Positions 1,023-21,655 of a stretch of DNA of 24,251 bases are shown here, one piece after another. The translations under genes were made by a program, and so were the position numbers. Source of the stretch: a virus. Numbering within the stretch: position 1 is the stretch's first letter; each line of letters starts with the position of its first letter. The stretch is from positions 1 to 24,251 of IMG/VR virus record IMGVR_UViG_3300012944_000060. One strand, written 5' to 3'. The notes under the pieces were generated by a model that ran no database searches, was not told the DNA's origin, and worked only from the letters and a program-made list of their open reading frames with translations.

Positions 1023-1691
1023 ATGGTTGCGCTGGTAATGGGAAGATGGTTAAGTGGCGGCATGGAAAATCTCGCTGATGGTCAGAGAATTATTACTGTC
1101 ATCCCCGGCATCATCATCCCGCTAGACTGCCTGCCTGCGGTGTGGGAAGTGTTCCAAGGCCAGTATGACATTCCTAATTGCGAACCGGATACCATCATCG
1201 ACATCGGTGCGAATGTGGGTTTGTTCGCAATCTGGGCAAAGGAGAAGTGGCCTTGCGCGAAAGTCTTATGCTATGAGCCTCACCCGGAAACTTTTAAATA
1301 TCTGGAGAACAACGCCACCTTTGCGATGCGATTCAATAACGCGATTGGCGATTGCCGAATCATCACACTTTTCGATTCGACCAACCGGTTATGTTCCTCG
1401 CAATATGACTTGGGGCATCAATTTCCAGATAAGCCACGAATAAACATTATGGTTCAAGAACCCGCTTATTTGGTAAAACCGGAGGGTGATTGCCTGATGA
1501 AAATAGACGCGGAAGGGGCCGAGGCGTACATTTGCGAGAACCTTGCATGGACTCCGAAATGGCTGGTATGTGAATGTCACTCTCAAACATTATTCGAGCG
1601 CGTCCGCAAGGCTTTGGGCAAGACGATGAAAATGGTTCAAGTCCTGCCACAACACGAAAATTGTTTTCTGGCCAAGTTCGAGAGATTATGA
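1023..1691 (+). CDS. FkbM-type SAM-dependent methyltransferase
   Basis: This is a class I methyltransferase of the FkbM type. Residues 57-66 (DTIIDIGANVG) form the SAM-binding motif I. YEPHP at 84-88 is the acidic ribose-binding position. NNAIGD (105-110) and LMKIDAEGAEAYI (158-170) are hallmark FkbM motifs. At 222 residues it is close to the usual length. FkbM enzymes O-methylate sugars, polyketides or other small molecules; in a phage, modification of host glycans is a plausible but unproven use. It opens a plus-strand island set against the surrounding minus-strand head genes. The start is uncertain: ATGs at 1023, 1038 and 1062 are all in frame, and if TAAATA at 1017-1022 is a -10 box the later starts are likelier. 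The stop shares ATGA with the next gene. Confidence 0.85.
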   Translation: MVALVMGRWLSGGMENLADGQRIITVIPGIIIPLDCLPAVWEVFQGQYDIPNCEPDTIIDIGANVGLFAIWAKEKWPCAKVLCYEPHPETFKYLENNATFAMRFNNAIGDCRIITLFDSTNRLCSSQYDLGHQFPDKPRINIMVQEPAYLVKPEGDCLMKIDAEGAEAYICENLAWTPKWLVCECHSQTLFERVRKALGKTMKMVQVLPQHENCFLAKFERL

Positions 1692-1792
1692 ATGACAGTG
1701 AAAGCAATGAGTGGTTTTCATTTTTCATTGGAATCATAATGGGACTTTGGATATTCATATTCTTTTTTGTTTTATGTCACACCCATTCCTGA
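1688..1792 (+). CDS. Tiny membrane protein (34 aa)
   Basis: The 34-codon ORF begins at the ATG inside the ATGA that ends the methyltransferase gene, so it is probably translationally coupled. It reads MNDSESNEWF then a continuous hydrophobic stretch (FFIGIIMGLWIFIFFFVL) long enough for one membrane span, and ends CHTHS. No family is recognised. A superinfection or envelope role would be guesswork. It overlaps the next gene by 19 bases. Confidence 0.55.
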   Translation: MNDSESNEWFSFFIGIIMGLWIFIFFFVLCHTHS

Positions 1793-2202
1793 CCGAAAAG
1801 CAGCACGATGATTTGAAGATATTCGCCCGAATCATGCATGACCGTGGCGGCATGGAGGCCATTACGGATGACGGTTACATCATCCTGCACATGGCCATGA
1901 ACGGCGTCCCTAAACCGGTCGTTCAGGCGGGCGATAAGACTTCCGTGGTGATGTTTTCCGATAAAGAATGGACGTGGCTGGTCGCCATGTGGACAGGTTT
2001 TGAAGGACAAGGCGACAATGGCCTTGGATGTCTGCGGGTGAAGCGGGATTATTTGATGAAGGAATTTTGTCCGCTTGGAAACTTCTCGCAGAAACGGGCG
2101 GTGAAGATATTCCACGGAATGCTCTCGATTCTTTGCATTCATCCTGAGAAGATTGATTTCGACTATGGCAGCATGAACCCGATGAAAGTAAGGCTTAACT
2201 GA
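1774..2202 (+). CDS. Hypothetical protein of the cargo island
   Basis: A 142-residue protein of unknown function. The start at ATG 1774 gives MSHPFLTEKQ and overlaps the preceding membrane protein by 19 bases; an upstream in-frame ATG at 1711 would extend it by 21 residues over the hydrophobic coding stretch and is less likely. It looks soluble, with no signal peptide or TM segment and no recognised catalytic motif. Its 3' end overlaps the convergent gpG-like gene by 8 bases, so the island's right boundary has no terminator space. Confidence 0.65.
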   Translation: MSHPFLTEKQHDDLKIFARIMHDRGGMEAITDDGYIILHMAMNGVPKPVVQAGDKTSVVMFSDKEWTWLVAMWTGFEGQGDNGLGCLRVKRDYLMKEFCPLGNFSQKRAVKIFHGMLSILCIHPEKIDFDYGSMNPMKVRLN

Positions 2203-2659
2203 GTCTTGCCATCTCCTGTTTCGCAACTCGCTCCAACGCCGACTGAGCATACGGCGTCAACTTGAATTCATTGCCGCCGGGATATGCCCATTCAACCACC
2301 GGAAAATACGGACGCGCCGGAATATTGTTGCCACCACCGAATTGATGAACTGCCGCATACGCCACATCCGTCTCCACCGACGCTCTATTATTCTGTATAT
2401 ATCCGATGCGGATACTATTCATCAATACACCTGACCGAATCAGGGTCGGAGGCCCGAAATACTTTATTCGTTTCTGATATTTCGGTGAAAGAGGGGGCCA
2501 CCGGCGCGGACGGTCAACGCCCATCACGCCAAAATTGCTCTTGGTGATGTTGACGAATTCACGCGCCATCGCCGCGAGCATCTGCCGCTGGACAATATCC
2601 AGTTGCCTTGAAATGCCCGACAAATCATCACGAACCAGCCGGAGGCGTATCGGTAACAT
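2195..2659 (-). CDS. Mu gpG-like tail completion / virion morphogenesis protein
   Basis: At 154 residues this fits the phage virion morphogenesis family (tail completion, Mu gpG or P2 gpS type). The signature runs through the middle and C-terminal half: RRWPPLSPKYQKR, PTLIRSGVLMNSIRI, TDVAYAAVHQFGG and IPARPYFPV. These proteins act at the head-tail junction or tail terminus. It follows the portal and small unknown genes in the order usual for Mu-like head modules. The ATG at 2659 overlaps the upstream gene by 32 bases, so a later start is possible. Confidence 0.85.
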   Translation of the reverse strand: MLPIRLRLVRDDLSGISRQLDIVQRQMLAAMAREFVNITKSNFGVMGVDRPRRWPPLSPKYQKRIKYFGPPTLIRSGVLMNSIRIGYIQNNRASVETDVAYAAVHQFGGGNNIPARPYFPVVEWAYPGGNEFKLTPYAQSALERVAKQEMARLS

Positions 2660-2906
2660 TCAATGAGGCCGGTGGAATGTCAGTCACAACAGGGGGCGTA
2701 GCGGCAACCACCACCGGCTTTTCCGCATCAGGATTTACGATGGCATGGTTCGCAAGAAAGTCCGCCACCGGCCATGGTTTAATCCCGCCATGCGACAGCG
2801 GGATGGCATAAACCTCGCCATCGCCCGCCGGGGAGCGCAAGGCCAGCACATTCATCCCGCCGCCATTTGGCGCATAGATTTTTCCGAAAACAATGGTGTC
2901 GCTCAT
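2628..2906 (-). CDS. Hypothetical structural-region protein, Pro-rich C-terminus
   Basis: The protein is 92 residues long. Its start is coupled to the upstream gene through an ATGA overlap (2903-2906). The N-terminal half (MSDTIVFGKIYAPNGGG) looks like a compact beta domain, while the last 30 residues are rich in Pro, Val and Thr, like a flexible tail. No family is recognised. Its place in the head-assembly operon suggests a minor structural or assembly role, which is inference. Confidence 0.65.
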   Translation of the reverse strand: MSDTIVFGKIYAPNGGGMNVLALRSPAGDGEVYAIPLSHGGIKPWPVADFLANHAIVNPDAEKPVVVAATPPVVTDIPPASLNVTDTPPAGS

Positions 2907-3268
2907 AATGGTCGATAGTCCTTTTCAAACTTCTCCACATCGACCATCAACTCGGTCAGCACCTTGGGGAAATGCGTTGGCGTGCCGTCCTTGGCCACAA
3001 TCGTCCCGCAAATCACGCGCACATGATAGCGCATCTTGACCTTGCCATGGTCAACGTCGTGCGCGGGATACAGGTTGGTCGGCTCGAACTGAATCAACCG
3101 GGCCTTCTCGATTATCTTGCCGTCCGGCCCGACCTTGACGAACCTTTTGCCAATCCGTTTTTCCATCACGTCCAACAATTGCGGTGACGGCATGTTATTA
3201 GCTTGCAACCATGCCTCAGGCATGACGGTTTGCAGCAGTTCAATGGGCACATCTTCTTCAATTGTCAT
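2903..3268 (-). CDS. Hypothetical structural-region protein (121 aa)
   Basis: A 121-residue soluble protein between the HTH gene and the 92-residue unknown, sharing a 4-base overlap with the latter. It begins MTIEEDVPIELLQTVMPEAWLQ, with Val/Lys-rich beta segments after it (GKRFVKVGPDGKIIEKARLI, VKMRYHVRVICGTIVAKDG). No known catalytic motif is visible. It lies where Mu-like phages keep small head-tail connector genes, but its sequence does not match the Mu gp36 family that I know. Confidence 0.65.
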   Translation of the reverse strand: MTIEEDVPIELLQTVMPEAWLQANNMPSPQLLDVMEKRIGKRFVKVGPDGKIIEKARLIQFEPTNLYPAHDVDHGKVKMRYHVRVICGTIVAKDGTPTHFPKVLTELMVDVEKFEKDYRPL

Positions 3269-3286
3269 AGTTTGTTTAGGGATTTG

Positions 3287-3487
3287 TTATTTGTATCTGT
3301 CCGGCACTTGATGTTTCTTTTCGAGCACTTCCAGACGGGCGATACGCCAGTGGGCTTTCCTACCATTACCGGGTTTATGCGCGGTTGTAAACACCCCATC
3401 TTCACAAAGTTTCTGGATGTAACGAACCTTGAAATTGAGAATCTTGGCCGCGATATGCGTGTCAATGATGGCGGGGAGTTCAGGCAT
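3287..3487 (-). CDS. Small helix-turn-helix protein (excisionase/MerR-like)
   Basis: The 66 residues have the pattern of a helix-turn-helix 17 / excisionase domain: IIDTHIAAKILNFKVRYIQKLCEDGVF, then a basic wing (HKPGNGRKAHWRI) and a short helix (ARLEVLEKKHQ). Such proteins bind DNA as excisionases or small regulators. Its start overlaps the portal stop by 8 bases, so it is co-transcribed with structural genes, an unusual place for an excisionase. A late regulator or packaging-related DNA-binding role is possible. Confidence 0.7.
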   Translation of the reverse strand: MPELPAIIDTHIAAKILNFKVRYIQKLCEDGVFTTAHKPGNGRKAHWRIARLEVLEKKHQVPDRYK

Positions 3488-5039
3488 TAGCAGACTCCTT
3501 CTTCTTGGCCGGTTTTCCGCCCTTGGCCATACCGCCGCTCACCGTTTGCGGTTCCGGGTCAATCTCCACGTTGATGCCCAATTTCTCCGAGACCGTTTCC
3601 AGTGATTCTGGTTTCACCCGCAAACCGGCCTGTTTTAGCGATACCAGCACCGTGGCATATTTACCGGCGGTTTCCTCGTCTATCACGCCCCAGACGATTT
3701 TAGGCGCATTGCCGGGAATGCCGTTAATGGTCAGATATTTTTTAAACAACTGCCGCCGGTTGGTGTTGTTCAATAGTTTCTGGTCAAACTGATTGATGTC
3801 ATCGGCCACCTTCGCGTGAACCGTCGAAGTGCCATCCCCAATCCCGCCCCCACCGCGCTTCTCGCTGGACGTGGTCTGGCCAATCACATTCTTGGAAATC
3901 TCCCCATTGCAGGTGTCAAACAGAATCTTGAACCCTTCGCTCAGATTGGTCGCCGATGCCTGTATCAACTCGACCTCGTCCTTGCGGTCAATCGCCATGC
4001 CAAACACCTTGGTGGCCGTCTGGATGGCGGATTGCATGAAATTGACCGAATCCACCGATTGCGAATTAGTCTTGCCGACAATGAACGGAGCACCCGACCG
4101 TTCCATGCTGCGCGACCACCAATCCCGCGCCTGTAATGATAGGAATATCCAGAACATATTGGCCCGGAACGCCCCGCCAAAATTATCCCGTATGCCGCCA
4201 AACAACGTCCCGCGATGAATGATGTGCCGCATCGGGTCTGCCGCATACATGTTGGCCCATGAAAAGTCGATAAACCCGTTCGGATAGGTGCGATAAAATC
4301 GCAAATCCGGTTCCCATGAATCCGGGTTCCAGACCGAATCCATCGGGTCAACCGGATTGAGCAACCCTATCGGAGTCTGGTTTGGCGCGGGCAACATGCC
4401 CTGTCCCGGTATATTGGGAAGCATGAAACCACCCTGCGCCAGATACGGCAGTTTATACGACAGCAACTCGCACGGAACGCAATAAAAGCTCTTTAACCCG
4501 TACCGGACATTATTCTGATACTTTTCATCCTCGTTTTCCTCGAAGATGTTCTCATTCACCGCCACCGGCCATATCGCGGCATCCAGCAAATGACCTAGGC
4601 CGGTGTCCCAGTTCTCGCAATCCTCAATCATGTACTTGATGGCGTCGCACGCCACTTGGTCTTGCGGCTTGGTCTTGTCGAACGGCTGCAAACTGTATGG
4701 TGCGCCGCACACCGCCATTTTGCGCTTATTCAACTCGCTCTGAAAATGAGAACTGGCCAGCGTCATGTCACGGTAAAGTGTGAACAGCCGGTAGGTGTCC
4801 CCGCGTTCCGCCTGCCGTATCGCGTCCTGAATGTCGGTAATCTTGGTCGTTACCGTGGACAGGTTCGGGGCCGTTCCCCACCCGCTCATGCGTGCCTTGA
4901 TATATTCTGGTATGTCGCCCTTGGGCTGCGCGGCATCGCTTCCCTGCGGGATTTGCGGCAACTGCGGCATCTTGGCCGGGAACACGCCGCCTATCACGTT
5001 GCCAATGCCACTAACCATGCGTTGTAAAACGTTCGGCAC
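3480..5039 (-). CDS. Portal protein, DUF935 (Mu gp29-like)
   Basis: The 519 residues match the DUF935 portal family. Features include the early ITDIQDAIRQAERGDTYRLFTLYRDM segment, LNKRKMAVCGAPYSLQPFD, IEDCENWDTGLGHLLDAAIWPVAVNE, the central Asn/Gly-rich FGGAFRANMFWIFLSLQARDWWSRSMERSGAPFIVGK segment, and the later IGQTTSSEKRGGGGIGDGTSTVHAKVADDI region. Portals form the dodecameric ring through which DNA is packaged. The C-terminus is Lys-rich (KGGKPAKKKESA). The start is GTG at 5039, directly after the TAA of the upstream 50-residue gene; ATG at residue 8 (MVSGIGN) is the alternative. Confidence 0.9.
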   Translation of the reverse strand: MPNVLQRMVSGIGNVIGGVFPAKMPQLPQIPQGSDAAQPKGDIPEYIKARMSGWGTAPNLSTVTTKITDIQDAIRQAERGDTYRLFTLYRDMTLASSHFQSELNKRKMAVCGAPYSLQPFDKTKPQDQVACDAIKYMIEDCENWDTGLGHLLDAAIWPVAVNENIFEENEDEKYQNNVRYGLKSFYCVPCELLSYKLPYLAQGGFMLPNIPGQGMLPAPNQTPIGLLNPVDPMDSVWNPDSWEPDLRFYRTYPNGFIDFSWANMYAADPMRHIIHRGTLFGGIRDNFGGAFRANMFWIFLSLQARDWWSRSMERSGAPFIVGKTNSQSVDSVNFMQSAIQTATKVFGMAIDRKDEVELIQASATNLSEGFKILFDTCNGEISKNVIGQTTSSEKRGGGGIGDGTSTVHAKVADDINQFDQKLLNNTNRRQLFKKYLTINGIPGNAPKIVWGVIDEETAGKYATVLVSLKQAGLRVKPESLETVSEKLGINVEIDPEPQTVSGGMAKGGKPAKKKESANA

Positions 5040-6210: not shown

Positions 6211-8562
6211 CTACCATCCCAACCGCTGCTCCGCAATACCCATCGGCATCGCCCGGATAAACCCGGTATTGCCACCCGCACTCCATCCTGAATTGGGCAT
6301 CATGGCTCCGAGACAGTTCTCCACCAGAACCCCATTGGCATAATAAACGTTTTCAGTGGCCAACGTCAGATTGTAAACCGGAACGCTTTTGGAGAGTTGT
6401 AATCGTCGCACACGGCTTGGAGCAATGAGATGCCTGTCGGTATTTATAAGTCTTGAAAGATTTTGAACAAATGATGCAATTCCTTTCCACTTTGAGATTC
6501 CTGATTTTCCATTTATCCCGGCAACTTGTGCAACAGAATTTGTGCGGAGTGAGTGATTTGAGCTTGAATATATCGCTGCAATATTTGCATTTAGCGATTC
6601 CAAGTTTTTCCAATCTGGCCCTTGCCGTAACCTTCCCGTGCTCCACATGCCACGACCTTCCGGCAATGGATTTATGCCATTCAATAGCGGCTCGTTGTGC
6701 CTTTCGTTGTCCAGCCAGCACCTTGCGCCGATAGTCTGGATTTGTGGCGAACAGTTTGGTTGTATGGTCTCTGCTATGCTTTGAATGAGTCTGCAATTCG
6801 AGGTTGCTGATTCGATTGTCCGTCCAATCCTCGTTTTTATGATGTACCACCATGCCTTCAGGAATAGGGCCACGCCGTTCTGTCCAGATGACCCGGTGAA
6901 GAAGTCTTTCGGTGACACCATGCCGGTTCTGGTCTTGATAATATCTACCGCTTGTTTGAAGGCGATATTTTCGCCCCTTGTGAATAATGAATTTAGGATG
7001 TTCCATATTTCAATACCATACACGGACTCAATCCTATGTGTCAACATGATTGCATCGGCTCTAATCCAGCCATCGCGGGTTAGAATCTTGTGATTGCCGG
7101 TGAGCATTAAAGACCCGGCAACATGGGAAATCTCAACCAAACTATCGGACAAGTTGCGATGCAGTTTTACAACTGGAGAATATCCCATTGGCGTCAAAAC
7201 CATATCGCCAATATTGATTGATTCAATCGGCACTTGACCTGATGCGGTATGCACCAGAGTTCCGGCTTGGCAGCAGGCGTCAGCTCTATCCGGGCTTGGA
7301 ACGCCCCTCTCTTTCATTTCCGCTTTGGTTTCGATGGCAAGTCTCCCTTTTGTACCTTTGGTGCGTTTCCGGTTTATTATCTGCGCCCTCAAGTCAAAAT
7401 CGTTAGGAAGGATGATATTGTGCATATCCATTAACTGAGAAGCGTTGTACCATACCTCGGCCTTGCTGTCCTGAAAATGTTCCTCGTCCTTTGCGGCCGC
7501 TCCGTTGTTCCACCGGTTGAGATACCATCCGCGCCGGTCAAGCTCATCCATCACCAGTTGACCACCACCGCCTTCATCCCCGCTGATTTGGCCCGCTGAC
7601 AATCTAAGCCGGGTGAAGTGATGCACAAACTGGTCGCACACCGCGTGCAATCCCTCGGCCCGGAACGTCGCCTCCAATGTCACCTTATTGCCATTCCTGA
7701 GACACAACACCGATTCGTCACCATCGTTGCTCCATGCGAAGTCACAGAATGCGTGAACCTCGCCCGCCTTCCATTCTGGTGGATTGTTAATCGCCACATC
7801 GACCTGCTTGTAGTCAATCACGGCATTCTCGACCAACGCCATGAAGCCGTGGCCAAGAATGGAGTCGGCAAGACCAGACCGTCCCCACTTCTCCCGCACC
7901 GCCTTGATAGTCTCAGGCTTGATATGAGGGCAATCCTCGGCCCGTTGCACGATGCACTTGAATTGATGCTTGTACGTGGTCTGGGACTCGAAAAACCAGC
8001 CTTCGGCAAAACCATGAGAGGATAATAGCATCAACCGGTCGGGCCTGATACGTCCTTCAACAACTGCCGCAAGCCACGGCTGCGCTGATTTACATTCATC
8101 GACCAGAAATGCCAGCGGGCCTTCTGGCCCAGTCGAATGGTCGCCCTCCGCATAGCCCGGTTTATTAGTCGTGAATCCGCGCAGGAAGCCTCCCTTGTTG
8201 GTTTTAATGTTGGGCGTCTCGTACCATGTCCATTCCGGGAACTTGTGTTTATACATGTGCAGGCCCGGAAGTAACTGCGCCAGCAATTGCGGATAGACAC
8301 CGCTCGTCGCATCTACTATGCCTTTTGGGAACATGAACAAATGCCAGAGGATTGCCGCCACTTCAACCAATCGCGTTTTGCCTCCTTCATTGCACGATGC
8401 AAAACTGATTTTACAATTCAACGGAAAGAATGCGTCGAGCGCCTCAGCTTGCTTGGGATACAGATTCATTCCCAGCTTGGATTCGGCGAAAGATGCAGGC
8501 CGGGAATATTTGCGAGCGAGTGCAGCAACCTGTGGACTGTTAATCGCCTCCAAAGTTGTCAC
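6211..8562 (-). CDS. terL: Large terminase subunit interrupted by an intein
   Basis: The precursor is 783 residues. The N-terminal ATPase carries a Walker A variant SCNEGGKT (56-63) and a Walker B AFLVDE (151-156). The nuclease domain shows acidic motifs at CDFAW (Asp274), SGDE (Asp329) and SPDRADA (Asp425/Asp428). Directly after DRADAC an intein begins at Cys431 and ends at Asn749, followed by Cys750 as the +1 residue, so splicing would join DRADAC to CLGAMM and yield a mature protein of 464 residues. The C-extein is only 34 residues. The protein should cut and translocate phage DNA into the prohead. Its start shares ATGA with the upstream small-subunit gene. Confidence 0.9.
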   Translation of the reverse strand: MTTLEAINSPQVAALARKYSRPASFAESKLGMNLYPKQAEALDAFFPLNCKISFASCNEGGKTRLVEVAAILWHLFMFPKGIVDATSGVYPQLLAQLLPGLHMYKHKFPEWTWYETPNIKTNKGGFLRGFTTNKPGYAEGDHSTGPEGPLAFLVDECKSAQPWLAAVVEGRIRPDRLMLLSSHGFAEGWFFESQTTYKHQFKCIVQRAEDCPHIKPETIKAVREKWGRSGLADSILGHGFMALVENAVIDYKQVDVAINNPPEWKAGEVHAFCDFAWSNDGDESVLCLRNGNKVTLEATFRAEGLHAVCDQFVHHFTRLRLSAGQISGDEGGGGQLVMDELDRRGWYLNRWNNGAAAKDEEHFQDSKAEVWYNASQLMDMHNIILPNDFDLRAQIINRKRTKGTKGRLAIETKAEMKERGVPSPDRADACCQAGTLVHTASGQVPIESINIGDMVLTPMGYSPVVKLHRNLSDSLVEISHVAGSLMLTGNHKILTRDGWIRADAIMLTHRIESVYGIEIWNILNSLFTRGENIAFKQAVDIIKTRTGMVSPKDFFTGSSGQNGVALFLKAWWYIIKTRIGRTIESATSNCRLIQSIAETIQPNCSPQIQTIGARCWLDNERHNEPLLNGINPLPEGRGMWSTGRLRQGPDWKNLESLNANIAAIYSSSNHSLRTNSVAQVAGINGKSGISKWKGIASFVQNLSRLINTDRHLIAPSRVRRLQLSKSVPVYNLTLATENVYYANGVLVENCLGAMMPNSGWSAGGNTGFIRAMPMGIAEQRLGW
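6316..7272 (-). other. Intein (319 aa) in the large terminase
   Basis: The in-frame segment has the splicing blocks of a Hint domain. The N-terminal block is CQAGTLVHTASGQVPIESIN, then IGDMVLT. Block B is SLMLTGNHKILTRDGW, with His491 of the TxxH-type motif (here TGNH). The C-terminal blocks are SVPVYNLTLATEN and VYYANGVLVENC. The terminal dipeptide is Glu-Asn rather than the common His-Asn, with Cys+1. Between blocks B and F the frame is open, but the roughly 210 residues there do not look like a LAGLIDADG or in-frame HNH domain; they are the off-frame reading of the nested nuclease gene. The insertion site is the conserved third nuclease motif of TerL, typical of inteins that target essential sites. 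Confidence 0.88.
6353..7006 (-). CDS. HNH homing endonuclease nested out of frame inside the intein
   Basis: A 217-residue protein encoded in another frame of the same strand as the terminase and wholly inside the intein. It carries the HNH core LHRVIWTERRGPIPEGMVVHHKNEDWTDNRISNLE (roughly 36-70; His55-His56, Asn64, Asn68) and HSKHSRDH. A middle segment WHKSIAGRSWHVEHGK (110-125) recurs in phage HNH proteins. Two C-terminal cysteine clusters (C140/C143/C159/C162 and C177/C180/C195/C199) look like zinc fingers for DNA binding. It would be the homing enzyme for this intein, cutting intein-free terL. The ATG at 7006 has only a weak upstream purine run, so expression could depend on coupling. Its last 12 codons overlap splicing block F. 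Confidence 0.88.
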   Translation of the reverse strand: MEHPKFIIHKGRKYRLQTSGRYYQDQNRHGVTERLLHRVIWTERRGPIPEGMVVHHKNEDWTDNRISNLELQTHSKHSRDHTTKLFATNPDYRRKVLAGQRKAQRAAIEWHKSIAGRSWHVEHGKVTARARLEKLGIAKCKYCSDIFKLKSLTPHKFCCTSCRDKWKIRNLKVERNCIICSKSFKTYKYRQASHCSKPCATITTLQKRSGLQSDVGH

Positions 8563-9008
8563 GGCGAACTTTCAACGTCAATTGGCTTGTCCACCAGCAA
8601 TTGAGGATGCAACTCTGCCATGGCCAGTTTGCGAGCCACTAAATTAGACAATGCGTCCAGCGCTGAATCACCTTCTCTTTGTAGCTGTTGCGGGTTGTAA
8701 TGCTTTTCTAGGCCAAGCAGCTTATCCTTGCGCTCTCTCGCGTAAATACGCTCTCGAATTGGAACTGAATCATTGTGAATTACGCCATCATACCAAGCCA
8801 CGGATTCGGCCACGAGGTTTTCAAAAGTGCCTGCAATCTGCTCTCTTAAAAGGTCGCGGGCGCGTGAAGCATAAGTTTCTGTCTGTCTCTTGGTAATTCC
8901 CCATTCTTTGGTTTTCGCGTATATCTGGTATGATTTTAGTCCCTCTGTAAGCCATTGAGCTATTGAAGCGACTCTGAGTTGAATTTCGGCTTGTGTGCTC
9001 TTTCCCAC
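8559..9008 (-). CDS. terS: Probable small terminase subunit
   Basis: A 149-residue protein immediately upstream of TerL with an ATGA overlap, the standard position of a small terminase. The N-terminal half is an HTH-like region (AEIQLRVASIAQWLTEGLKSYQIYAKTKEWGITKRQTETYASRARDLL), consistent with packaging-site recognition. The rest is helical and charged (IRERIYARERKDKLLGLEKHYNPQQLQREG), suiting the oligomerisation domain. GTG 9008 is the only upstream start before an in-frame TAA at 9020-9018. The identification is by context and HTH pattern, not by a firm family match. Confidence 0.7.
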   Translation of the reverse strand: MGKSTQAEIQLRVASIAQWLTEGLKSYQIYAKTKEWGITKRQTETYASRARDLLREQIAGTFENLVAESVAWYDGVIHNDSVPIRERIYARERKDKLLGLEKHYNPQQLQREGDSALDALSNLVARKLAMAELHPQLLVDKPIDVESSP

Positions 9009-11055: not shown

Positions 11056-11730
11056 ATGACAACACATCAAACATTCAAGCCAACCAAGAAAATCGTTAAT
11101 CGAATCCTGTCTATTGTTGATTGCGGGTTGACCAAAGGGGCAGGTAAACCGATTGCCGGGCAGCTTTGTGTTGAGGCTGCAATTTGTCTCGCTTTGGGCC
11201 TGCCACACGGCGACGAACCGCCTTGTGTTGGCGCTGCCGTTCGCTCATTCAAAATCGCCTTGAACGATTCGCAATGGTCAAGTGATAAAGCCCGCGCCAA
11301 AGGAATGCGAAAATTAGCCATTGCCCAGCTTGGCAGCGATTCAATTGACCAGAATCTATTCGTGAAAGAACTGACATTGGCCACAATTCGTAAAATTGTT
11401 CCACTGGCGTTGAGAGCGGCTGCCAAGATAAATCCAAAACATTCTAAATCGCTTGAATCACATGCGGTCAAATGCGAGTTGATTGGCGATGATTTAAACG
11501 CCGCCAGTGACGCCGCCAGAGCCGCCAGTGACGCCGCCAGTGACGCCGCCAGTGACGCCGCCAGAGCCGCCAGTTACGCCGCCAGTTACGCCGCCAGTGA
11601 CGCCGCCAGTGACGCCAGTGACAAAGTGTTGACTCTCATGGCAGATATTGGATTGGAGGCATTAATCAAATGCAAATCACCCGGTTGCAAATGGCTCTTT
11701 TTGTGCAACCCACCCAAGGCCCAACCATGA
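11056..11730 (+). CDS. Conserved phage protein with an Ala-Ala-Ser-Asp repeat domain
   Basis: The 224-residue product has a conserved N-terminal domain of about 145 residues (GAGKPIAGQLCVEAAICLALGLPHGDEPPCVG, then WSSDKARAKGMRKLAIAQLGS and TIRKIVPLALRAAA), a pattern seen in a family of phage and bacterial proteins of unknown function. A low-complexity region of about 40 residues follows (AASD/AASY/AARAASD units). A short C-terminal piece (ALIKCKSPGCKWLF) has two cysteines. The family, as remembered, often has Ala/Tyr-rich repeats of variable length at this position. The repeat is encoded by near-perfect 12-base units. The stop overlaps the next start (ATGA). Confidence 0.75.
   Translation: MTTHQTFKPTKKIVNRILSIVDCGLTKGAGKPIAGQLCVEAAICLALGLPHGDEPPCVGAAVRSFKIALNDSQWSSDKARAKGMRKLAIAQLGSDSIDQNLFVKELTLATIRKIVPLALRAAAKINPKHSKSLESHAVKCELIGDDLNAASDAARAASDAASDAASDAARAASYAASYAASDAASDASDKVLTLMADIGLEALIKCKSPGCKWLFLCNPPKAQP
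11499..11622 (+). repeat. 12-base tandem repeat array within a coding sequence
   Basis: Imperfect 12-base units (GCCGCCAGTGAC and variants with TAC, or with an extra GCCAGA) are repeated about nine to ten times. The units are multiples of 3, so changes in copy number keep the frame. Two variants (TAC for GAC; the AGAGCC insertion) recur in ordered positions. Confidence 0.85.
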
Positions 11731-16925: not shown

Positions 16926-16990
16926 TAATGGTTCACCAACCAAAAATCATCGCCCTGCCCGTCGCGGCGTTCGTTGCGAAGGGGAAATGA
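16922..16990 (+). CDS. Possible 22-residue linker peptide
   Basis: A tiny ORF (MIMVHQPKIIALPVAAFVAKGK) begins in the ATGA that ends the previous gene and stops one base before the HNH start codon. It may only serve to carry ribosomes to the HNH gene. Weak support. Confidence 0.25.
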   Translation: MIMVHQPKIIALPVAAFVAKGK

Positions 16991-16991
16991 T

Positions 16992-17438
16992 ATGTCAGCC
17001 AAAAGAAACAAAAAATACGATGTGGCTGCGCGTTTATACGCGACTGGATTGAGCATTCGTCAATGTGCCGCCCGTTTCAGCGTAACCGAACAATGCATGT
17101 CAAAGGCTTTAAAGCGAAGAAATGTTTCATTTAGGCCAGCATTGCAATTCGGAAAAGACAATTGGCTTTGGACTGGAACAAAGAGAACTTCACTGGAAAG
17201 AAAAACCCAAGGCAAAGTGGCGTATGCGATTAAAAAAGGAATCATTTCAAGGAAACCTTGCGAAATATGCGGTACAAGCTCTAAAACAAAGAACGGACAA
17301 CCAAATATAGAAGCCCATCATGATGACTACAACAAACCCCTATCCGTCCGATGGCTCTGCCGGAAACATCATCGCATCTGGCATAAAGAAAATACCCCAG
17401 TGCGAGCCAAGGACTATGTTCAATCCACCATCGATTGA
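16992..17438 (+). CDS. HNH endonuclease with N-terminal HTH
   Basis: The 148-residue protein has an N-terminal resolvase-like HTH (YDVAARLYATGLSIRQCAARFSVTEQCMSKALKRRN) and a C-terminal HNH (CEICG at 90-94, NIEAHHDDYNKPLSVRWLCRKHHRIWH, with His109-His110, Cys123, His126-His127). This is the layout of free-standing phage homing nucleases. The start at 16992 follows an AGGGG-type site. It overlaps the following gene by 23 bases, so it may have moved in next to that gene. Confidence 0.85.
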   Translation: MSAKRNKKYDVAARLYATGLSIRQCAARFSVTEQCMSKALKRRNVSFRPALQFGKDNWLWTGTKRTSLERKTQGKVAYAIKKGIISRKPCEICGTSSKTKNGQPNIEAHHDDYNKPLSVRWLCRKHHRIWHKENTPVRAKDYVQSTID

Positions 17439-21123: not shown

Positions 21124-21206
21124 ATGCCGGTGGTACGGCAACCAGTTTTCCATGTCGGATTGCTTGGCGCGTTTCTCTTTCGCGCCGTACCACGAGCATC
21201 CGGCAT
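21124..21206 (+). repeat. Long inverted repeat in the leader of the HNH gene
   Basis: The left arm (21124-21139, ATGCCGG+TGGTACGGC) pairs with the right arm (21184-21206), which has 7 extra bases between its two halves. A total of 16 base pairs flank a 44-base loop and a 7-base bulge. In RNA it would form a stable stem-loop ending 5 bases before ATG 21212. It could control HNH translation or be a recombination relic. Confidence 0.6.
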
Positions 21207-21211
21207 GGTTT

Positions 21212-21655
21212 ATGATTATCAATACTAACAAAACACGCAAAGAACTTTACTTGGAATATCTTGCCAGTGAGCATTGGCGAAATCTCAGAATGGAGAAGAT
21301 AATTCGAGCAGGAAAGAAGTGTGAGTCCTGTGGATTTACGGGCAAACTGCAAGTCCATCATTTGAACTATCGAAACTGGATTGATTGTACGGCCGAGGAT
21401 TTAATGTGCCTTTGTCGAGCATGTCACGAGGCTTTTCATAGGGCTATTAAACCGAATTGGAGCAGGCCGGACTTTTACAATATTGGGCAGACAATAACTC
21501 TCATCCGGCGATACCTTGAGATTGACGATGAAGTGCAGAACAACGTTCCACTGAGAATCGAACGCGCATACAAGAAATGTGTTGCCGCTGGATTTACCAA
21601 GAAAGCGATATTACATTGCGCCAACACAATGAAGGCTGTCGCTAAAAAGGCTTGA
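21212..21655 (+). CDS. HNH endonuclease (stand-alone)
   Basis: From ATG 21212 the 147-residue product reads MIINTNKTRKELYLEYLASEHW, then the HNH core CESCGFTGKLQVHHLNYRN and DLMCLCRACHEAFH (CxxC, HH, CxxC). The arrangement is that of HNH_5-type nucleases with two zinc knuckles. The C-terminal half is helical. An in-frame ATG at 21152 would add 20 residues, encoded by the loop and right arm of the inverted repeat, so the shorter form is preferred. It may be a homing nuclease; it lies next to the host-like lipoprotein gene. Confidence 0.8.
   Translation: MIINTNKTRKELYLEYLASEHWRNLRMEKIIRAGKKCESCGFTGKLQVHHLNYRNWIDCTAEDLMCLCRACHEAFHRAIKPNWSRPDFYNIGQTITLIRRYLEIDDEVQNNVPLRIERAYKKCVAAGFTKKAILHCANTMKAVAKKA

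Follow-up and report, generated by a model that had tools for sequence, protein, structure and literature searches.

The viral record IMGVR_UViG_3300012944_000060 of IMG/VR, analysed over its positions 1 to 24,251 (this whole stretch is referred to as the window), carries on its minus strand a gene for the terminase large subunit (terL, 8562-6211) whose 783-amino acid (aa) open reading frame (ORF) continues without a stop through an intein. We consider it likely that this is a mobile intein with a homing endonuclease encoded by a gene of its own that overlaps it. In the TerL frame the insert is a Hint splicing domain divided by a stop-free, probably disordered linker, and the -1 frame of this linker is a complete and constrained endonuclease gene with an HNH_3 domain, two Cys4 clusters and its own start and stop codons. 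A preliminary description of this DNA had proposed a Hint intein frame that stays open across a 217-codon HNH gene in another frame, and separate searches agreed with it, giving Hint_2 on the intein and HNH_3 on the nested ORF.

The intein and its nested HNH gene

The terL ORF matched terminase large subunits in PHROGs, and the junctions in the window read SPDRADA / CCQAGT...VLVEN / CLGAMM. The N-extein (7276..8562, identified by the ORF and the PHROG matches) ends in the residues SPDRADA, and the C-extein with its stop (6211..6315, identified by the ORF and an extein alignment) begins with CLGAMM, where C is the +1 nucleophile. When joined, the exteins (463 aa) gave a one-piece alignment at 97% coverage with the insert-free TerL of Akkermansia phage DTMo-2021a, and the element is an in-frame insertion into a conserved host protein with intein-free homologues. 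The end of the intein had been placed at 6316, which stood, and its start at 7272, which was moved to 7275, the first Cys of CCQAGTL, by alignment to CFxxGT. The intein is therefore one residue longer than described and comprises 320 aa from C1 to N320, followed by C+1 (6316..7275, minus strand).

Its identity is supported by a Hint_2 match (E = 1.9e-7 to 8e-7), by alignment with 98 relatives and by Foldseek, in which the model matched the gp41-1 intein 6qaz (1.3e-6) as well as other inteins. HintN, with blocks A and B (TGNH), lies at 7012..7275, and HintC, with blocks F and G (VPVYNLTLATENVYYANGVLVEN), at 6316..6387, both located by hidden Markov model matches and AlphaFold. The predicted local distance difference test (pLDDT) score was 89-98 for the Hint ends (89-98 for residues 1-90, 92-95 for HintC) and mostly below 50 in the middle, at about residues 128-280. 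The splicing residues C1, TGNH in block B, N320 and C+1 are all present. Given these features, it is extremely unlikely that we are dealing with a group I intron, or with an insertion that does not splice, as in the case of ShiLan. The ShiLan insertion, too, is open and contains a hidden HNH in another frame (PMC11855218), but here all Hint blocks (A, B, F and G) accompany the HNH together with C1, N320 and C+1, the model resembles gp41-1, and an Rfam search gave no match.

The nested gene (6353..7006, minus strand) consists of 217 codons and a TGA in the -1 frame relative to terL. It matched Pfam HNH_3 (E = 5.9e-18) and phrog_15471 (E = 3.2e-25), and its AlphaFold model had a pLDDT of 93.5. 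The catalytic HNH_3 domain (6770..6904) was matched in 97/97 aligned members, in all of which H55, H56 and H77 are invariant. The two zinc-finger-like Cys4 clusters noticed earlier alongside the HNH motif are located at 6410..6589; the first (C140/C143/C158/C162) is invariant in 55 aligned members and the second (C177/C180/C195/C199) is kept in at least 90% of the same 55. The HNH motif and the zinc module are under protein-level selection across the family. A profile match was obtained to I-HmuI (1u3e, E = 4.7e-4), which shares the HNH core but is intron-encoded, and a whole-fold Foldseek search of the HNH model against PDB gave no significant match.

At its 3' end the nested gene, stop included, shares 35 nucleotides (nt) with the last 24 intein codons (6353-6387), so that this stretch encodes both block F and the end of the HNH protein; the overlap corresponds to the last 12 HNH codons of the preliminary description. 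The arrangement differs from that of a canonical endonuclease intein, in which the nuclease lies in frame between blocks B and F, and also from that of a split intein, since the intein frame of the window is continuous.

Occurrence of the layout and selection on the two frames

IMG/VR was scanned with an HNH alignment that was blind to inteins and, separately, with an intein alignment, and a locus was counted if an HNH ORF was found between a Hint N block and a Hint C block. The layout, which the preliminary description had suggested looking for in other TerL inteins, was found in 106 distinct contigs, the window included and Acinetobacter phage Highwayman and Tetrasphaera phage TJE1 among them. 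Two further annotated records, Rhodobacteraceae phage LS06-2018-MD07 and a human gut phage, also have it; annotated phage records were left out of the alignments behind the structure models. The relatives were sought from the window's own HNH and intein, so the share of nested forms among them is no unbiased census of inteins. The HNH is in the identical relative frame (+2; the -1 frame) at 106/106 loci, and over the HNH there are 0 stops in the intein frame of every locus and 1-36 in the third frame. A sequencing error as the source of the frame difference, considered earlier, is excluded by these relatives.

At the intein ends, 97 of the 106 loci have C as the +1 residue and 7 have S, and the TxxH motif of block B is present in 93. 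All host ORFs that were examined and classifiable were terminases. The C-extein is at most 90 aa long in 99/106 loci (longer in seven), and the intein flanks mostly match the nuclease-domain Asp motif of TerL. One contig (L002, 1-3420) encodes a TerL with two inteins. The N-terminal one is in frame and LAGLIDADG-like, and the other, near the C-terminus, has the nested HNH. An archaeal metagenome-assembled genome (MAG) of Methanimicrococcus (L169) has a HintN and a nested HNH ORF, but its intein ORF stops near the end of the HNH. No in-frame HNH was found among the Hint-containing relatives, and the dCTP deaminase intein of cyanophage CL131 was the only in-frame HNH_3 case encountered.

The overlap at the 3' end recurs in the family. 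In 104/106 loci the HNH ORF with its stop reaches into the last 24 intein codons, and 45 loci have the stop exactly 55 nt upstream of the intein end. The intein residues over the stop are most commonly Tyr-Asp (28) and Tyr-Asn (12), for which the block F codons TAT-GA. and TAT-AA. read as TGA and TAA in the HNH frame. The window has TAC at this common stop position, and its HNH extends 18 nt beyond it.

The probability that both frames are open by chance was examined by permutation, in which the HNH protein was fixed and synonymous codons were redrawn by own or extein codon usage. For the window, the intein frame was open in 1% (own usage) or 0.25% (extein usage) of the draws; in the reverse test, in which the intein protein was held constant, 0/400 draws left the HNH frame open. 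The expected number of intein-frame stops per locus was 2.0 (own usage) or 3.6 (extein usage), compared with none observed in 104/104 testable loci. The summed log10 P was -112 (own usage) or -190 (extein usage), values that are overstated given that related loci were treated as independent, and the weight of the chance argument lies in the spread over many divergent lineages and not in the summed P. Eight free-standing HNH relatives have 4-7 stops in the corresponding frame, which is near expectation.

Substitution rates at intein codon positions 1/2/3 were compared for 13 related pairs. They were.24/.19/.50 in the exteins,.14/.10/.28 in HintN and.13/.09/.34 in HintC, and.12/.27/.16 across the HNH overlap. 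Here the peak is at intein position 2, which is HNH position 3, indicating that the HNH is the constrained protein in this region; a comparison of selection in each frame had been suggested earlier, and this codon-position shift is its outcome. Among HNH-synonymous changes 0 stops arose in the intein-frame linker, compared with 6.4 expected, and selection on the linker beyond stop avoidance was slight (BLOSUM 4.59 vs 4.43, standard error 0.06). Outside the block F overlap, the intein frame over the HNH is thus constrained mainly to avoid stops. The distance correlations between HNH, Hint and extein were about equal (0.31 each) and are uninformative on swapping. Together, the 106 loci, the codon-position shift, the permutation and the structure models bear out the earlier proposal of a mini-intein-type Hint domain combined with an out-of-frame HNH, with the intein frame kept open.

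These data also bear on whether the locus could be a degenerate element, that is, a decayed in-frame HNH intein that was frame-shifted by indels and in which one frame is open by chance or assembly error. In-frame HNH_3 inteins do exist (CL131 dCTP deaminase, PMC6293099) and decay does occur, given that L017 and L130 have one HNH-frame stop each; in both the intein frame is still open, as expected if the nuclease may decay while terL may not. A single relative frame over 106 loci with both frames open, the third-position peak of the HNH, its invariant catalytic residues and its own start and stop codons make such an explanation very unlikely, and it is already contradicted by the homologues.

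Proposed translation of the nested gene

The HNH frame of the window has a TGA (7010..7012, minus strand) that ends 3 nt upstream of the ATG at 7006, so that the nested frame opens at -3, which suggests internal initiation. A start codon is found near the HNH N-terminus in 101/106 loci, the top-scoring one being ATG in 82. Strong Shine-Dalgarno pairing was seen at 51% of the HNH starts; the corresponding figures were 24% in a matched random-codon control and 17% for internal start codons. Around the HNH start, RNA structure showed no excess over shuffled sequences (z -0.19).

Alternatively, the HNH could be made as a fusion of Hint-N and HNH by programmed -1 frameshifting. This would fit with every nested gene lying in the -1 frame and with the 14 scattered slippery heptamers found near the HNH start over the 106 loci. 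However, the position of a slippery site is conserved nowhere among these loci, the HNH frame is open for at most 30 nt upstream of the homology in 43 of them, and the TGA in the window makes a fusion essentially impossible. Given also the widespread start codons and the enriched Shine-Dalgarno-like sequences, frameshifting is quite unlikely.

Several observations weigh against a separately translated homing endonuclease inside an active intein. Five loci have no clear start codon near the HNH, and the Shine-Dalgarno pairing of the window HNH is weak (-2.8 kcal/mol). The penultimate intein residue is Glu in the window, compared with His in 59/106 loci. The closest relative of the window HNH has 45% identity, and selection on the window copy is deduced from the family. 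Splicing, cleavage and HNH translation are activities that we infer, and the HNH tree does not discriminate capture of the nuclease gene from its escape.

Mobility, alternative states and probable origin

The inteins of L111 and L124 are 95% identical and the extein third positions of these loci are 58% different; similarly, L003 and L004 have 2 differences in 276 nt of HintN, compared with 32% at extein third positions. Such near-identical inteins in divergent terminases indicate mobility of the element in these relatives, the window copy being without a close relative.

HNH relatives also occur as free-standing genes directly beside an intein-free terL, recognised through annotation or PHROGs, in PAE1, vB_EauM-23, Shemara, SN1, FBPa53 and Poludnitsa and in seven contigs (L019, L046, L050, L051, L064, L069 and L170). 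In BP10 the free-standing HNH precedes terS, and L039 is an exception in that no terminase was recognised alongside. In L170 (Spirosoma MAG, 1349-3516), an example from a bacterial genome, the HNH ORF starts right at the end of the intein-free TerL. This adjacency is compatible with the HNH being a packaging cofactor for cos cleavage that is co-encoded with terL, like HK97 gp74, and not a homing nuclease; the HK97 HNH protein, encoded beside the terminase, aids cos cleavage (PMC10448857). We regard this as improbable given that the nuclease lies inside a mobile intein shared almost unchanged between divergent terminases, that HNH-less mini-inteins occupy the same site and that intein-free terminases are common.

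Two phages, Lactobacillus phage CL2 and Vibrio phage 1.238.A, have a TerL intein in two separate parts, N and C, with the HNH situated between them. Homologues in which the intein frame is interrupted by stops had been named as a possible refutation, and these two phages do have such homologues; with recognisable N- and C-intein halves flanking the HNH, however, they look like split inteins and not like refutations. In CL2 (L180, NC_028835, 455-2771), the N-half of terL with the N-terminal intein half ends at 1951 and is followed by the HNH at 1967-2590, and the ORF at 2487-2771 contains an unannotated C-terminal intein half with C-extein (VHN/CMDATRYF); this terL is probably a fractured, trans-splicing terminase. 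In Vibrio phage 1.238.A (L184, NC_055735, 263-3991), the fractured terL likewise has the HNH between its two intein parts, the 'hedgehog/hint domain protein' at 3674-3991 looks like a C-terminal intein half with C-extein, and a second intein lies in frame further upstream in the same TerL. In a gut phage (L177, MT835839, 2351-3766) the two Hint blocks, N and C, are on different ORFs, and the insert between them is interrupted, is not an HNH and is possibly LAGLIDADG-like; this could be a further intein that was split or has decayed.

L125, L126 and L149 have, at the corresponding position of TerL, mini-inteins of 134-155 aa that lack an HNH. In the HNH tree the nested and free forms are intermixed, with 7-8 state changes of which at least 3 are forced by well-supported branches, and the states have interchanged repeatedly. 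The earlier suggestion of a captured HNH gene is made plausible by the free HNHs beside terL and the mini-inteins at the same site. Capture of terL-adjacent HNH genes into TerL mini-inteins is the simplest reading of the origin and a likely one, although less certain than the layout itself.

For a mobile intein with an overlapping endonuclease gene, the following course is proposed. HNH genes next to terL would have been incorporated into TerL mini-inteins. The 783-aa precursor would self-splice to the 463-aa TerL, and the same mRNA would give the 217-aa nuclease by internal initiation at ATG 7006. The nuclease would cleave intein-free terL at a predicted site near the insertion site, and recombinational repair would then copy the intein together with the nested gene.

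Elsewhere in the window, an ORF at 8559-9008 occupies, by gene order, the usual terS position upstream of terL, and a Mu-type portal gene lies downstream at 3480-5039. Two more small HNH-like ORFs with CxxC and HH motifs and no Pfam match lie at 16974-17438 (+) and 21152-21655 (+), and an alanine-rich repeat protein (AASDAARAASDAASDAA...), also without a Pfam match, is encoded at 11056-11730 (+).

The inteins usually described are either mini-inteins or carry an in-frame endonuclease. A search of the open literature, which takes in few subscription papers and preprints, gave no account of a splicing intein that contains an out-of-frame endonuclease; an earlier description is therefore possible, but the layout appears to be undescribed for inteins. 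Fractured genes, in which split inteins have a free endonuclease gene between their halves, were reportedly described by Dassa et al. in 2009; they share the independent endonuclease ORF between intein halves, but their intein frame is broken whereas that of the window is continuous. The nearest published case is that of the ShiLan domain and the Pacc40 'hidden' HNH insertions in phage methylases (Arsenault, Gosselin, Gogarten 2025, PMC11855218). ShiLan resembles the present family in the out-of-frame HNH within an insertion open in the host frame, the zinc-finger flanks, the lack of a clear ribosome-binding site and the signature of mobility. It is without a detectable splicing domain and its insertion is thought to be retained in the methylase, whereas in the present family the HNH is enclosed by a full Hint intein, which lies in TerL and occurs at more than 100 divergent loci. 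Canonical inteins, whether LAGLIDADG or the HNH_3 intein of CL131, for which splicing has been shown (PMC6293099), have the Hint domain, the insertion at a conserved active-site motif and the homing endonuclease within the insert in common with the present one, but their endonuclease is an in-frame part of the intein and not a separate overlapping gene. Mycobacteriophage TerL inteins are located in the ATPase domain (PMC5050341), whereas 99/106 of those found here lie close to the C-terminus of TerL, for the most part at its nuclease motif. The free-standing relatives beside terL fit with collaborative homing, in which homing endonuclease genes lie beside an intron-containing gene as in ICP1 and T3 (PMC10448857), the difference being that the nuclease gene is here inside the splicing element.

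The evidence moderately favours the wider view that these loci form an unrecognised and widespread class of dual-coded mobile inteins, in which, in phage terminases, this family of HNH_3 nucleases is mainly overprinted in the -1 frame inside Hint inteins and repeatedly exchanges free, split and nested states. The choice of frame would then be shaped by the low stop density of the -1 frame in HNH genes and by block F, where the Tyr-Asp/Asn codons (TAT GA/AA) also supply the HNH stop in many members. Nested inteins resemble mini-inteins with long meaningless linkers, and surveys of the intein frame would therefore miss the nuclease; the loci of Highwayman and TJE1 are annotated only as 'terminase large subunit'. 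If confirmed, this would be a natural case of dual coding, one stretch of DNA being read as a disordered linker in the first frame and as an enzyme in the second, and the nuclease gene would be selfishly protected within an essential gene. Free-standing homing genes, split inteins and inteins would be joined in one family, and the acquisition of endonucleases by inteins would become directly testable.
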